Shown: piece after piece, positions 3,924 to 24,326 of the stretch
Layout: each line of letters opens with the position of its first letter
Numbering within the stretch: the first letter of the stretch is position 1
Assembly: GCA_016209885.1 (NCBI GenBank)
Contig: JACQVF010000078.1
Location: 1 to 64,000, forward strand
Direction: 5' to 3'
Origin: Gemmatimonadota bacterium
GTDB taxonomy: Bacteria; Gemmatimonadota; Gemmatimonadetes; Longimicrobiales; Gaopeijiaceae
DNA length: 64,000 nt
Notes under the pieces: model-generated
What the model saw: only the letters and a program-made list of their open reading frames with translations
Databases searched by the model: none
What the model was told of the DNA's origin: nothing
Program-made: the position numbers and the translations under genes

Positions 3924-4320
3924 GTGTGCCAGGCATGTCATGTCTCTGGAGTGAGAGTCCCCAACAGGCCGGGGTAGCCGGAACTGGATAGCCGAAGGCA
4001 AGGGTGCCCGTCGTGAGGCGGGATCTGAAGGAAGCCGGAGGCGAAGCACGGACTCGACGAACAGGAACCGGATAGGAGGGCCGACGCGGCGGGGCAACCC
4101 GGCAACGGACGGGGAAGCCCGATAGCTACTCGGACGCACGCGGAGGTAAATCCGGCGCGGCCCGTGGGAGCGGCACTCGATCAGCTCCCGCGCGTGAAGG
4201 GCGGCTTGGGCAGGTGCGGGTCGAAGAACTCGGGTTCGGCTCGATGAGCATGCGGGCGGCACGGGGCCCGGCGCAGAGACCAGGAAAGTGACGCTGGGAA
4301 ATCCACCCTTGCTGTATTGA
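3924..4320 (+). mobile_element. Group II intron, 5' part only (reverse transcriptase missing)
   Basis: The segment begins GTGTG, a match to the GTGYG group II intron 5' end. It then carries strings I recognise from domain I of bacterial group II introns: CTGGAGTGAGAGT, TAGCCGAAGGCAAGGGTG, CGTCGTGAGGCGGGATCTGA, GGAAGCCGGAGGCGAA and GACGAACAGGAACCG. A complete bacterial intron would carry an ltrA-type reverse transcriptase/maturase ORF in domain IV and end with domains V-VI. None of these is found before vapC at 4485. I infer a truncated, inactive intron. The 3' boundary given here is approximate. Confidence 0.6.
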
Positions 4321-20358: not shown

Positions 20359-20910
20359 TCTCCCTCCAGTGCGTTTCAGGGTGGTCTCGAGACGACCCGC
20401 GAGCGCGGGGATCCCCGTGTTCCTGCTCTCGGCGTCTCGAGCGTCGAGCCGGCTGCGGGCCGCGCGCTCGAAGTCGTCGCCGGCCCCCGCGCGTGCCCCG
20501 AGAAACCGTGGGCCACGGCAGACACGTCAGCGAACACGCTCGCCGCCCAAGATGTGGGCAGGGGCGGGACGCAGCAAGCGCGCCCAGCGCGAAAGTGCCC
20601 AGCGCGGAGCGCGCGCGGGCCGCACCGGCACGCCGTGACCATGAAGGCCGCCCACCTGGCGCCCGGTCCCCCGAAGCAGGCGGTGCGGCAAGGATCGTGC
20701 GGCACGTGCGGCACGGATTGGCTTGTGTCGCGGGGAACCGAGCGTTGAACTGAACCGCTGCGCGGTGGCGGTCGTGGTGTCCTCCCGGGTAGTCGTCACT
20801 CCCGACACAAGTTGAGTGGAGCTCGCTCCGCGGCCCGGCCGAGGTGGGTCTGTGGAGTGGACGGGCCAAGTTGCGGTCTTGGCAACGCAACCCCGTCACA
20901 GGAGGGACCG
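20359..20910. other. No gene; possible left border of an integron-like cassette
   Basis: 552 bases with only shadow frames. GTTGAAC at 20744-20750 fits the GTTRRRY core consensus used at integron cassette junctions, but no partner RYYYAAC and no attC fold were found with it, so this is weak. An inverted repeat (GTTGCG/CGCAAC, 20870-20891) lies just before the next ribosome-binding site. Confidence 0.35.
20870..20891. promoter_or_regulatory. Inverted repeat upstream of the brnT-like gene
   Basis: GTTGCG at 20870-20875 pairs with CGCAAC at 20886-20891 across 10 bases. It ends 20 bases before ATG 20911. BrnTA systems autorepress through BrnA, so this could be an operator, or a leftover recombination site. 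No matching -35/-10 pair was evident. Confidence 0.3.
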
Positions 20911-21276
20911 ATGAGCGAGCTGCGCCGGAGGATGCTGACGGACCTGAGGATTCGGAGCTACGCGGAGCGGACTCAGGAGATCTACGTCGGGCGAGTGGCC
21001 GAGATGGCCGTGTACTTCAACCGTTCCCCGCAAGGGCTGAGCCGGGAGGACGTGCGGGGGTACCTACGTCACTTGAAGGAAGACCCGCTCTCGATTACAC
21101 TCGACGACCCGGACCACTCGAGCACCGAGCAGCGCTTTCTCCTGCTCGGCCGTGCAGCGACCGATCGTCTACTGATCGTGGCGATTGCGAAACGAGACGA
21201 CGCAGTGCGCATCATCAGTGCACGGCTGATGACTCGGCGTGAGAGAAGAGCCCATGAGCAACAAACCGGCCGCTGA
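20911..21276 (+). CDS. Chimera: tyrosine-recombinase N-terminal domain joined to BrnT toxin C-terminus
   Basis: 121 residues from ATG 20911 with CAGGAGG upstream. Residues 1-55 (MSELRRRMLTDLRIRSYAER, TQEIYVGRVAEM, LSREDVRGYLRHLKED) match the SAM-like N-terminal DNA-binding domain of phage/IS-associated tyrosine recombinases. From about residue 58 the sequence is BrnT: DPLSITLDDPDHSSTEQRFL, LLGRAATDRLLIVAIAKRDD, AVRIISARLMTRRERRAHE. A normal BrnT starts with ~27 residues (FEWDPxKA... type) that are missing. The junction is in frame, so a protein could be made, but RNase activity is doubtful. The antitoxin BrnA overlaps its end. Confidence 0.7.
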   Translation: MSELRRRMLTDLRIRSYAERTQEIYVGRVAEMAVYFNRSPQGLSREDVRGYLRHLKEDPLSITLDDPDHSSTEQRFLLLGRAATDRLLIVAIAKRDDAVRIISARLMTRRERRAHEQQTGR

Positions 21277-21481
21277 CGAGCTTCGTGAGGAGTATGACTT
21301 CACACCTGACCAGCTCCGCGCTGGCGTCCGTGGGAAGTACGCAGAGCGCTACGCTCGAGGCGTCAACATCGTTCGTCTTGATCCGGATGTTGCCGCCGTC
21401 TTCCCGGATTCCGAATCGGTGAACGAGGCGCTCCGTGCCCTCGCTGAGGTCATCCGAAATCGCGAACGCCGTTCGGCCTGA
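21254..21481 (+). CDS. brnA: BrnA-like antitoxin
   Basis: 75 residues from ATG 21254 (MSNKPAADELREEYDF). The pattern ELREEYDFTPDQLRAGVRGK, YAERYARGVNIVRLDPDVAA and VFPDSESVNEALRALAEV is characteristic of BrnA/CopG-type antitoxins, with a C-terminal ribbon-helix-helix for DNA binding and dimerisation. It would neutralise BrnT and repress the operon. It overlaps the toxin frame by 23 bases, as usual for brnTA. A GTT-type attC site follows 114 bases after its stop, suggesting the pair was mobilised as a gene cassette. Confidence 0.85.
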   Translation: MSNKPAADELREEYDFTPDQLRAGVRGKYAERYARGVNIVRLDPDVAAVFPDSESVNEALRALAEVIRNRERRSA

Positions 21482-21594
21482 GCGGTATCCGCCCTCCGAC
21501 GGCACCAGCGCGGCGACTCCCAGCTCAGCTAGAACCGTCGCGCTAGGCGATCCTGCATCCGTCAGTCCAAGTCGCACATCATTATCGGCCCGCG

Positions 21595-21696
21595 TCCTAA
21601 CAGGCCGCTGCAGCCGACGAGCGACGCGTGGGAACCACACGCTGCGAAGTCAAGGATCGTCCGCGCCGCTCGCGGCTGAGCGCCAAGGCGTTAGGA
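21595..21696 (+). other. Integron-type attC recombination site
   Basis: Outer boxes TCCTAAC (21595-21601) and GTTAGGA (21690-21696) are perfect inverse complements. Inside them CAGCCG-A-CGAGCG on the left pairs with CGCTCGCGGCTG on the right, leaving one extrahelical A, then CGCG/CGCG. A small GTGG/CCAC loop sits at the centre. This is the R''/L''-loop-L'/R' layout of attC sites, and the right side (GCGGCTGAGCGCCAAGGCG) is very attC-like. It points the right way to belong to the brnTA cassette. No integron integrase is present in the window. Confidence 0.65.
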
Positions 21697-22053
21697 CCTT
21701 CGCCGCCTCCGCGCGATCAAGGCTTCCAGCTCCGGTACCTGTTCGAGATCCTCCGGTCGCCGCATCGCCGGCTTCGCTTTCAGCAGCCTCTCCAGATTGA
21801 GCGCTTGGAAGCCGAGGTCGCCTGCGGCGATGTCCACTGACTGCCGGGGCGCCCTGGCATAGTCGCCCACACCCTGGACGACGTCGACGAGGTCGAGATG
21901 GCCCTCGTCCGTCGTGAGGGTCAGCACCGGCGACGCCGCAAGCGTCCGCACGTCGACAATGAAAGACCCGCCCAACTCACGAAGCTCGAGCGGCGCTCCC
22001 GCGGCTCCCGCGGCCTTTTCCTCGACAGCCGCCAACGGCGCGGGTAGATTGCG
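21691..22053 (-). pseudogene. 3' fragment of a nucleotidyltransferase-like (DUF6036-type) protein
   Basis: The frame reads LTTDEGHLDLVDVVQGVGDY ... LGFQALNLERLLKAKPAMRR, PEDLEQVPELEALIARR, matching the C-terminal half of small nucleotidyltransferase-fold proteins often found in toxin-antitoxin-like loci. The N-terminal GG/GS and DxD nucleotidyl-transfer motifs are absent. Similarity fades at about 22053, exactly at a hairpin GGGTCG-AAG-CGACCC. Its stop codon lies within the GTTAGGA box of the attC site, so the gene abuts the recombination point. Probably inactive. Confidence 0.5.
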
Positions 22054-22197
22054 GGTCGAAGCGACCCCGCTGTCCCCTCTCTGCCAGACCGTTCGGCCTG
22101 CCGGGCACTGCGTGGCGACTGGCGTTGTGGGGGTCATCTCGCGCCACACCGAGATCGCAGACAGCATGTCGCCTCGTTCCGAGGGTCGGCGTATTCC

Positions 22198-22635
22198 ATG
22201 CGGTACACGATGCGACCTCCTAGCCGCTTCAGCCCGATCGTGGCGGCGTGCGGCTGCGTCGCACTGGCGGCGGCCGGCCGCCCGCCCGCGCAGACCGCCG
22301 GAGGGCTGGCGTCGGCGCGCGCGACCAATCGCTTCGCGCCGGCTCGCGCGTTCATCCTGGGTTACATGCAGGAGCGCCGCCTTCCCTCGGTGGCGGTTGC
22401 GGTGGCGAAGGATGGCGAGATCCTGTGGGAGGAAGGATTCGGCTGGGCGGACCTCGAGCACCGGATTCCGGTCACCCCCAATGCCCCCCATTCCCTCGCC
22501 TCGATCTCGAAGCCGATGACGGCCACTGCGATTATGGAGCTGGCCCAGGAGGACAGGCTCGAGCTCGACCGGCCGGCGAACGACTACCTGGGAAGCGGCA
22601 AGCTCACCGGGCTGGCCGGCGATGCGTCCGGCTGA
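22198..22635 (+). pseudogene. 5' fragment of a beta-lactamase-related serine hydrolase
   Basis: After a signal-like segment (PIVAACGCVALAAAG), the frame has FILGYMQERRLPSVAVAVAK, DGEILWEEGFGWADLEHRIP and SLASISKPMTATAIMELAQE. SISK is the SxxK nucleophile motif of class C beta-lactamase/penicillin-binding-like hydrolases. The frame stops after about 140 residues, before the YxN and HTG motifs expected in a ~350-500-residue enzyme. Following sequence in another frame (LRDGKLSGQATAQTTEEAVY, to about 22760) could be the far C-terminus, implying an internal deletion. A start at 22210 is also possible. Confidence 0.6.
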
Positions 22636-22811
22636 GCCACACGGACCTGCGGCTGCGCGACGGCAAGCTCAGCGGCCAGGCGACGGCGCAGACCACTGAG
22701 GAGGCGGTGTATTTCGCACTGACGTCGTACGTGGAGCTGCGGCGGTCATCGAGAACCCGCTGACCGCGCGGTGCCCAGCTGCGGACTGCGCGTCACGAAC
22801 CGGAGACGTGA

Positions 22812-24326
22812 ATGACGAGAAGTCTGGAGCTGATGCTTATCACGCGAGCCCGCGGCCATGGTGTCCGGGCCGCCGTCGTGGCGGCCGAGGGGACGTTCAG
22901 CTACAGCGAGCTGCTCGACGCCTCGGCGCGCGTAGCGAGCGCGCTCCTGGGCGGCGGGGAGGACCTCGAGCAGGCACGGATCGCTTTCCTCGTCCCGCGC
23001 GGCTTCCAGTACGTAGCCGTGCAGTGGGGAATCTGGCGCGCGGGAGGCATCGCCGTGCCCTTGGCGGTCTCGCACCCGGCGCGCGAGCTCGAATACGTGG
23101 TCGCGGACGCGGACGCCTCAGCGATCGTCGCCCATCCCGACTTCGAGGCGGTCCTGAAGCCGATCGCGACGTCGCGGGCGATCCGCTTCGTGAGCACGAC
23201 CGAGGTCCTGGCCGCCGCGCCGCCACTTTCGCTTCCGGGAGTGGACGAGCGCCGGCGAGGCTTGATCCTGTACACCAGCGGCACCACCGGGCGGCCGAAG
23301 GGGGTCGTGCTCACGCACGCGAACCTACGGGCGCAGGTCAGCTCGCTGGTCGCCGCGTGGGGATGGAGCGCGCACGATCGGATTCTCGGGGTGCTGCCGC
23401 TCCACCACACCCACGGGATCATCAACGTGCTGAGCTGCGCCCTCTGGCCGGGCGCATGCTGCGAGCTGCTTCCCGCGTTCGATGCAGAACGCGTGTGGCA
23501 GCGCTTCGCCGACGGCGACGTGACCGTGTTCATGGCCGTTCCCACGATCTACGCGCGGCTGATTGCGGCGTGGGAGACCGCGCCGGCCGCGTCCCGCAAG
23601 GCCATGTCCGACGGCTGCGCGCGCATGCGCCTCATGGTTTCCGGCTCCGCGGCGTTGCCGGTTCGCGTTTTCGAGCGCTGGAGGGAGATCACCGGCCACA
23701 CGCTCCTTGAGCGCTACGGGATGACGGAGATCGGCATGGCGCTCTCGAACCCCCTGCGCGGCGAAAGGGTTGCGGGCTCGGTGGGCACGCCGCTCCCGGG
23801 CGTGGAAGTACGGCTCGTGGACGAAGAGGGACGGCCGGTGGAGCCGGGAGCCGCGGGCGAGATCCAGGTCCGCGGCCCCGCTGTGTTCCTGGAGTACTGG
23901 CGCCGACCGGATGCCACGGCTGAGGCCTTCCGTGACGGGTGGTTCATGACCGGCGACCTCGCGGTGGTCGAGAACGGGCGATACCGAATCCTGGGCCGAA
24001 AGAGCGTGGACATCATCAAGACCGGGGCCTACAAGGTCTCGGCGCTCGAGATCGAGGACGTGTTGCGCGAGCACCCCGACGTTCGCGAATGCGCGGTGGT
24101 GGGAATCCCGGATCCGGAGTGGGGCGAACGCGTGGCGGCGGCGGTGATCACGAGGCACGGGAATGAGCTGGACCTGCAGGCGCTGCGGGATTGGGCGCGC
24201 CAGCGGCTCGCCCCCTACAAGCTGCCGGCCCGGCTGCTCGTGGTGCCCGACCTCCCGCGAAACGCGATGGGTAAGGTGCAGAAGCCTGAGGTCACGGCAC
24301 TGTTCGAAGCTGTGGATCGGGTGTAG
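22812..24326 (+). CDS. Acyl-CoA synthetase (AMP-forming), malonyl-CoA synthetase-like
   Basis: 504 residues, GGAG six bases before ATG. The adenylate-forming core is complete: P-loop LYTSGTTGRPKGVVLTHANL, LPLHHTHGIINVL, YGMTEIGMALSNP, the GDLA/GRK hinge (TGDLAVVENGRYRILGRKS) and the C-terminal lysine region (PRNAMGKVQKPEV). The closest family by eye is MatB/ACSF3, which ligates CoA to malonate or methylmalonate, but substrate choice cannot be read reliably. It converts an organic acid plus ATP and CoA into acyl-CoA and AMP. The adjacent symporter probably imports its substrate. Confidence 0.85.
   Translation: MTRSLELMLITRARGHGVRAAVVAAEGTFSYSELLDASARVASALLGGGEDLEQARIAFLVPRGFQYVAVQWGIWRAGGIAVPLAVSHPARELEYVVADADASAIVAHPDFEAVLKPIATSRAIRFVSTTEVLAAAPPLSLPGVDERRRGLILYTSGTTGRPKGVVLTHANLRAQVSSLVAAWGWSAHDRILGVLPLHHTHGIINVLSCALWPGACCELLPAFDAERVWQRFADGDVTVFMAVPTIYARLIAAWETAPAASRKAMSDGCARMRLMVSGSAALPVRVFERWREITGHTLLERYGMTEIGMALSNPLRGERVAGSVGTPLPGVEVRLVDEEGRPVEPGAAGEIQVRGPAVFLEYWRRPDATAEAFRDGWFMTGDLAVVENGRYRILGRKSVDIIKTGAYKVSALEIEDVLREHPDVRECAVVGIPDPEWGERVAAAVITRHGNELDLQALRDWARQRLAPYKLPARLLVVPDLPRNAMGKVQKPEVTALFEAVDRV

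Follow-up and report, generated by a model that had tools for sequence, protein, structure and literature searches.

A 5′ fragment of an IS91-family element (20743–21081, + strand) is joined to the 3′ part of a brnT toxin gene (21082–21276, +) in the 64 kb stretch of DNA analysed here, hereafter the window. The end of brnT overlaps the start of an intact brnA-type antitoxin gene of 75 aa (21254–21481, +), behind which lies an integron-type attC site (21595–21696, + orientation). An ORF on the − strand (21691–22125), which is not recognisable as a cassette, reads towards this site, and its TAA stop falls inside the R′ box.

The attC site is 102 bp long and runs from an R″ box, TCCTAAC (21595–21601, +), to an R′ box, GTTAGGA (21690–21696, +), which contains the G/TT crossover point. 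These RYYYAAC/GTTRRRY-type outer boxes are exact complements (7/7), as the first-pass annotation had read them, and the covariance-model match described below has the same two ends. The outermost pair is T-A, which puts the first and last letters of the site off the R...Y consensus, as in some of the sites used to train the model. GTTAGG occurs once on each strand of the window, both times within this site. Between the boxes, the L″ arm CGCT-G-CAGCCG-A-CGAGCG (21606–21623, +) and the L′ arm CGCTCG-CGGCTG-AGCG (21667–21682, +) pair as three inner stems (CGCT/AGCG, CAGCCG/CGGCTG and CGAGCG/CGCTCG). The inner stem with an extrahelical base that had been proposed is present with two bulged bases, G21610 and A21617, separated by 6 bp and confined to the left, R″–L″ arm. 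This is the canonical bulge arm, as in arrays attached to intI, and the same two bulges occur in the arrays behind our model. In intact arrays the bulged arm is the gene-proximal one, and the site accordingly has the orientation expected at the end of a brnTA unit, in agreement with its earlier placement behind brnA in cassette orientation. At 113 bp, the spacing from brnA to the attC is longer than the 13–45 bp of most cassettes in this comparison, which counts against the cassette reading. Folded as DNA, the bottom strand reaches −31.7 kcal/mol (z −3.6; 1 shuffle in 200 did equally well), compared with −30.1 kcal/mol (z −2.9) for the top strand.

An Rfam scan gave no match at the site, its only match being a group II intron elsewhere, and we therefore built an attC covariance model (R1). 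Its 44 training sites come from integrase-linked arrays of the same class, taken from the DNA around TIGR02249 integrases and aligned with a hand-set structure; the window's own site was left out. That structure is kept by 93% of the cells of the alignment, and 17 of its 22 pairs change on both sides. All 44 training sites, like the site in the window, have a G left unpaired where the GTT-type stem gives way to the L″ stem. In a default search of the window, R1 gave a single, full-length match at 21595–21696 (+), with 58 bits and an E value of 3.2e-11. With the Infernal filters off, the score fell to 28 bits for a partial local match covering the inner part only, still the sole match with E below 1; we use the full-length default match as the result, in agreement with the genome-wide search, where the site has an E value of 2.1e-9. 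The model is specific, with 98 of the 121 family genomes lacking any match at E 1e-3, and the site has the top R1 score among these 121 genomes. Nor does the sequence recur as an unrelated repeat: its one other match in the genome, of 24 bp, is itself part of another attC. The site is thus almost certainly a genuine attC. A transcription terminator, or a chance attC-like imperfect inverted repeat behind brnA, would account for a palindrome just 3′ of a gene and for the strong folding of both strands, but is highly improbable. The model, whose training set did not include this site, matches nothing else in the 64 kb and scores no site in the 121 genomes higher; a terminator does not need bulges, yet two are present, canonically spaced and on the arm where an attC has them; a T run is lacking; and sister sites in the same genome stand behind antitoxin genes.

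On the left, the cassette is interrupted. Multi-copy homologues of the segment from about 20743 to 21083 are found at several places in the family genomes, with identities of 81–92% over the first 25–50 bp and 73–80% from about 20838 or 20884 to 21083. The aligned copies share a sharp common start, (G)TTGAACT-AACCGCT-CGCGGTGG, preceded by unrelated DNA, and they diverge from the window past about 21083, running on into the recombinase. The corresponding reading frame in the window (20911–21081, +) encodes the first ~57 codons of a tyrosine recombinase (Phage_int_SAM_4, PF13495, E 2.4e-9) that are 67–72% identical to recombinases in three other genomes (G283, G098 and G191). In an intact copy (L122), the recombinase has 284 aa and is accompanied by an IS91 family transposase (NF033538) of 402 aa; the window copy is without this Y2 transposase, with its zinc-binding domain, and has also lost its right end together with most of the recombinase. 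Its own genome contains the fragment only once, and an assembly jump through a repeat, although still conceivable, is for that reason less likely.

GTTGAAC does occur at 20744, where it had been taken as a cassette feature. Given the sharp common terminus of the copies and the intact L122 element, we assign it instead to the IS91-family end: it is part of the conserved left terminus, CGTTGAACTGAACCGCTGCGCGGTGG, and we reject it as the left cassette border. The + strand of the window has one GTTRRRY motif in roughly every 4 kb, and a match near a cassette gene should not be annotated as a border, as it is here part of an unrelated insertion sequence. The GTTRRRY core of a preceding attC, attI or attG is absent, the IS91 fragment being joined inside brnT, and the real left border of the cassette is lost.

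The junction creates a fusion ORF (20911–21276) in which the recombinase N-terminus is in frame with the C-terminal part of BrnT. The latter covers positions 24–77 of 77 of PF04365 (E 2.3e-13) and starts at residue 32 of an intact BrnT from a related array (L079), so that about the first 31 codons, and with them the full-length RNase toxin domain, are missing. BrnA matches no Pfam or NCBIfam model and is 75% identical over residues 7–73 to a Longimicrobiaceae homologue (L205); homologues of brnA occur in 31 of the 295 class genomes, many directly behind an intact brnT. The original description as a BrnTA locus is therefore right for brnA, which is intact, and needs amending for brnT, which is 5′-truncated and fused to a recombinase. 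The toxin is very probably dead. We consider it very unlikely that the fusion ORF is a functional protein and the module still an active toxin-antitoxin pair. The ORF is in frame, is preceded by a strong Shine-Dalgarno-like sequence (CAGGAGGGACC) and leads into brnA, but the toxin is without its first third, and in two close relatives by brnA (G212 and G198) brnT is deleted or frameshifted beside an intact brnA, which fits toxin-first decay. Because the brnA start overlaps the end of the ORF, brnA could be expressed through translational coupling. The locus is most likely a decayed cassette that can no longer move and whose antitoxin is an orphan, and a dead toxin beside an intact antitoxin fits the logic of toxin-antitoxin decay, in which losing the toxin first is harmless.

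In relatives, brnTA modules travel as attC cassettes. One integrase-linked array (L079, in genome G247) holds an intact brnT of 94 aa with its brnA, the brnT start lying about 30 bp past the preceding attC. Compared with this array, the window keeps the last two thirds of brnT, the whole of brnA and the attC, with ~120 bp of the cassette's left end gone. The order attC-brnT-brnA-attC is also found twice in the Longimicrobiaceae MAG YX3bin18, at L205 (JAUJOM010000015.1) and L284 (JAUJOM010000033.1), whose BrnA proteins are 75% and 71% identical to that of the window; the attC behind brnA in these two loci was recognised by eye or by a weak score only. Across the class, an attC (E below 0.01) accompanies 13 of 29 loci with brnA homologues and none of 29 control loci, which are homologues of the right-flank ORF on the other side of the site. 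Seven of the 13 have the attC 13–45 bp behind brnA. Earlier work lists BrnT/BrnA among the toxin-antitoxin systems carried by integrons (PMC7370490, PMC8876359), and Gemmatimonadota are known to have integrons (PMC8618304). In five of the arrays (L070, L071, L078, L079 and L082) the array lies 3′ of intI in the same orientation, so that transcription of the integrase runs towards the cassettes; class 1 integrons have the opposite arrangement.

The right-flank ORF was considered as a second, reverse cassette and rejected, with no attC behind it and none near its 29 homologue loci. Gene fragments are abundant around the attC. Further right, 22198–22635 (+) encodes the N-terminal fragment of a beta-lactamase family serine hydrolase (PF00144, positions 3–93 of 329), broken off near 22635. 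Elsewhere in the window, 4007–4181 (+) matches a group II intron domain (RF02001, 103 bits). A plasmid collection yielded no relative of the locus. No genome with an empty site was found, a probe with the right neighbour, an acyl-CoA ligase, giving no shared flank and none of the other neighbours.

The lack of an integrase, noted earlier for this stretch, extends to the whole assembly, a MAG that is 93.6% complete in 115 contigs: no protein passes the TIGR02249 cut-off (best 127.7 bits against 265), which is passed by 92 of 295 class genomes and by none of 14 control genomes. The best-scoring protein, a recombinase on contig C45, was rejected as the missing integrase on its 127.7 bits and a gap between profile positions 177 and 238, which we take to be the place of the integrase-specific insert. 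At 93.6% completeness, an integrase could lie in the missing part.

The genome-wide R1 search found further attC sites. One on contig C39 (43671–43770) scores 41.5 bits and one on C48 (561–627), weaker, 33 bits; three on one strand of C106, between 21894 and 23066, score 30.2, 30.1 and 25.9 bits, and a match at C21:22293 (22.6 bits, E 0.5) is uncertain. The C106 sites (21894–23066, equal to L116 5895–7067) form a three-cassette CALIN, with an attC after each cassette. Its cassettes contain a toxin remnant with a Phd-type antitoxin (PF02604), a gene that we read as cupin-like although it has no Pfam match, and a small ORF. A homologue of this antitoxin in another genome (G304:C206) is followed by an attC-like left half. 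The C39 attC is preceded by a 5′-shortened ParE-like toxin, a weak match below the Pfam cut-off, and a Phd-type antitoxin. In this C39 site (L087 1501–1600), GTTAGG is followed by GTGCGCC, and a group II intron (RF02003, L087 1625–1776) lies directly after it in the same orientation as the cassette; known group IIC-attC introns are mostly in the opposite orientation to the cassette (PMC7923331). The suggestion of an isolated cassette far from an array thus holds for the window, where the cassette is alone, and oversimplifies the genome, which has other attC sites including the three-cassette cluster. With further attC sites and no integrase over the cut-off, this is a SALIN/CALIN case, and the genome is a CALIN/SALIN carrier. 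At least eight other family genomes likewise have attC sites and no integrase match at E 1e-60.

Taken together, we read the locus as the surviving 3′ part of a brnT-brnA-attC cassette, located in the chromosome of a genome with no recognised integrase: a SALIN in a genome with a small CALIN. We put the probability of this reading at roughly 0.87. An IntI, present earlier in the lineage or acting in trans, would have inserted the cassette by way of the folded bottom strand of the attC, either outside an integron, at an attG-type site, or into an array that has since disappeared or been split up. An IS91-family element would then have arrived on the 5′ side of the cassette, and a deletion would have joined the first 340 bp of the element to codon 32 of brnT, taking away the left border, the start of brnT and all further parts of the element. 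The attC may still be a recombination substrate, but with neither an integrase nor a left border, normal cassette excision of the unit is not possible.

Accepted routes to a CALIN are off-target insertion, intI loss and rearrangement (PMC8618304), and insertion at non-classical attG sites is described by Loot et al. (2024), as cited in PMC12690207 and PMC12444791. Rather than a single attG-type insertion, the cassette may have been the last of a larger array or integron with intI, the rest of which was deleted or sits on an unassembled contig. This variant concerns the origin only and leaves the attC and cassette parts of our reading unaffected; we regard it as a serious possibility, somewhat short of even odds. 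It draws on the perfect R″/R′ match, the C106 cluster and the several contigs with attC sites, the fragmented and incomplete assembly, and the acceptance of intI loss and rearrangement as CALIN sources in the work just cited. Against it, both flanks of the locus on its contig (C59) look chromosomal, and R1 finds no second attC within the 64 kb window. A past insertion at a non-attC site does not follow from the 7/7 match of R″ and R′ alone.

Incomplete toxin genes in this genome are brnT in the window, the parE-like toxin on C39 and the toxin remnant beside the antitoxin on C106. In the window and L207, and probably also L136, brnT breaks at one shared codon, the D of DPLS, and the DNA in front of the break is unrelated; for L207 it was judged against the near-identical intact L284 copy of the same MAG. 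Other shortened brnT copies break at other places, and the shared codon may be due to chance. YX3bin18 thus has two near-identical brnTA cassettes, one intact (L284, JAUJOM010000033.1) and one cut at the window's codon (L207, JAUJOM010000005.1). A broader proposal would hold that, in Gemmatimonadota without an integrase, toxin-antitoxin cassettes tagged by an attC decay in a fixed, toxin-first order, and that the break at the D of DPLS, in up to three loci, marks a preferred recombination point. We find this conjunction unlikely as a whole; if it were true, the orphan antitoxins left behind, tagged with an attC, may still protect against incoming toxin-antitoxin modules.

Recognisable cassettes, mainly toxin-antitoxin ones, are scattered in a Gemmatimonadota genome in which no integrase was recognised, and integrase-bearing relatives hold large arrays. 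This group is thus a natural setting for studying how cassettes exit from integrons, how they persist without an integrase, and the order in which toxin-antitoxin cassettes decay.

The locus is not a new system; it is a leftover of a known type, here well preserved. SALINs and CALINs are single attC sites, or clusters of them, without an integron integrase (PMC12690207, PMC9024848, PMC8618304). Like these, the window combines an attC with cassette genes at a distance from any intI, and no intI could be recognised in its genome; unlike them, the left half of its cassette has been destroyed by an insertion-sequence remnant. That remnant, at 20743–21081, has the left terminus and the 5′ end of the recombinase of IS91-family elements with an accessory tyrosine recombinase, and differs from them in having neither the transposase nor the right end and only the beginning of the recombinase. 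With the BrnT/BrnA cassettes of environmental and chromosomal integrons (PMC7370490, PMC8876359), the locus shares the toxin-antitoxin order, the overlapping genes, the attC behind them and the same orientation, whereas its brnT is truncated at codon 32 and only the antitoxin is intact. Its counterparts in YX3bin18, L205 and L284, come from the same phylum and have the same gene order, with BrnA 71–75% identical and an attC behind the genes; unlike the window, they have an attC on both sides and an intact brnT.
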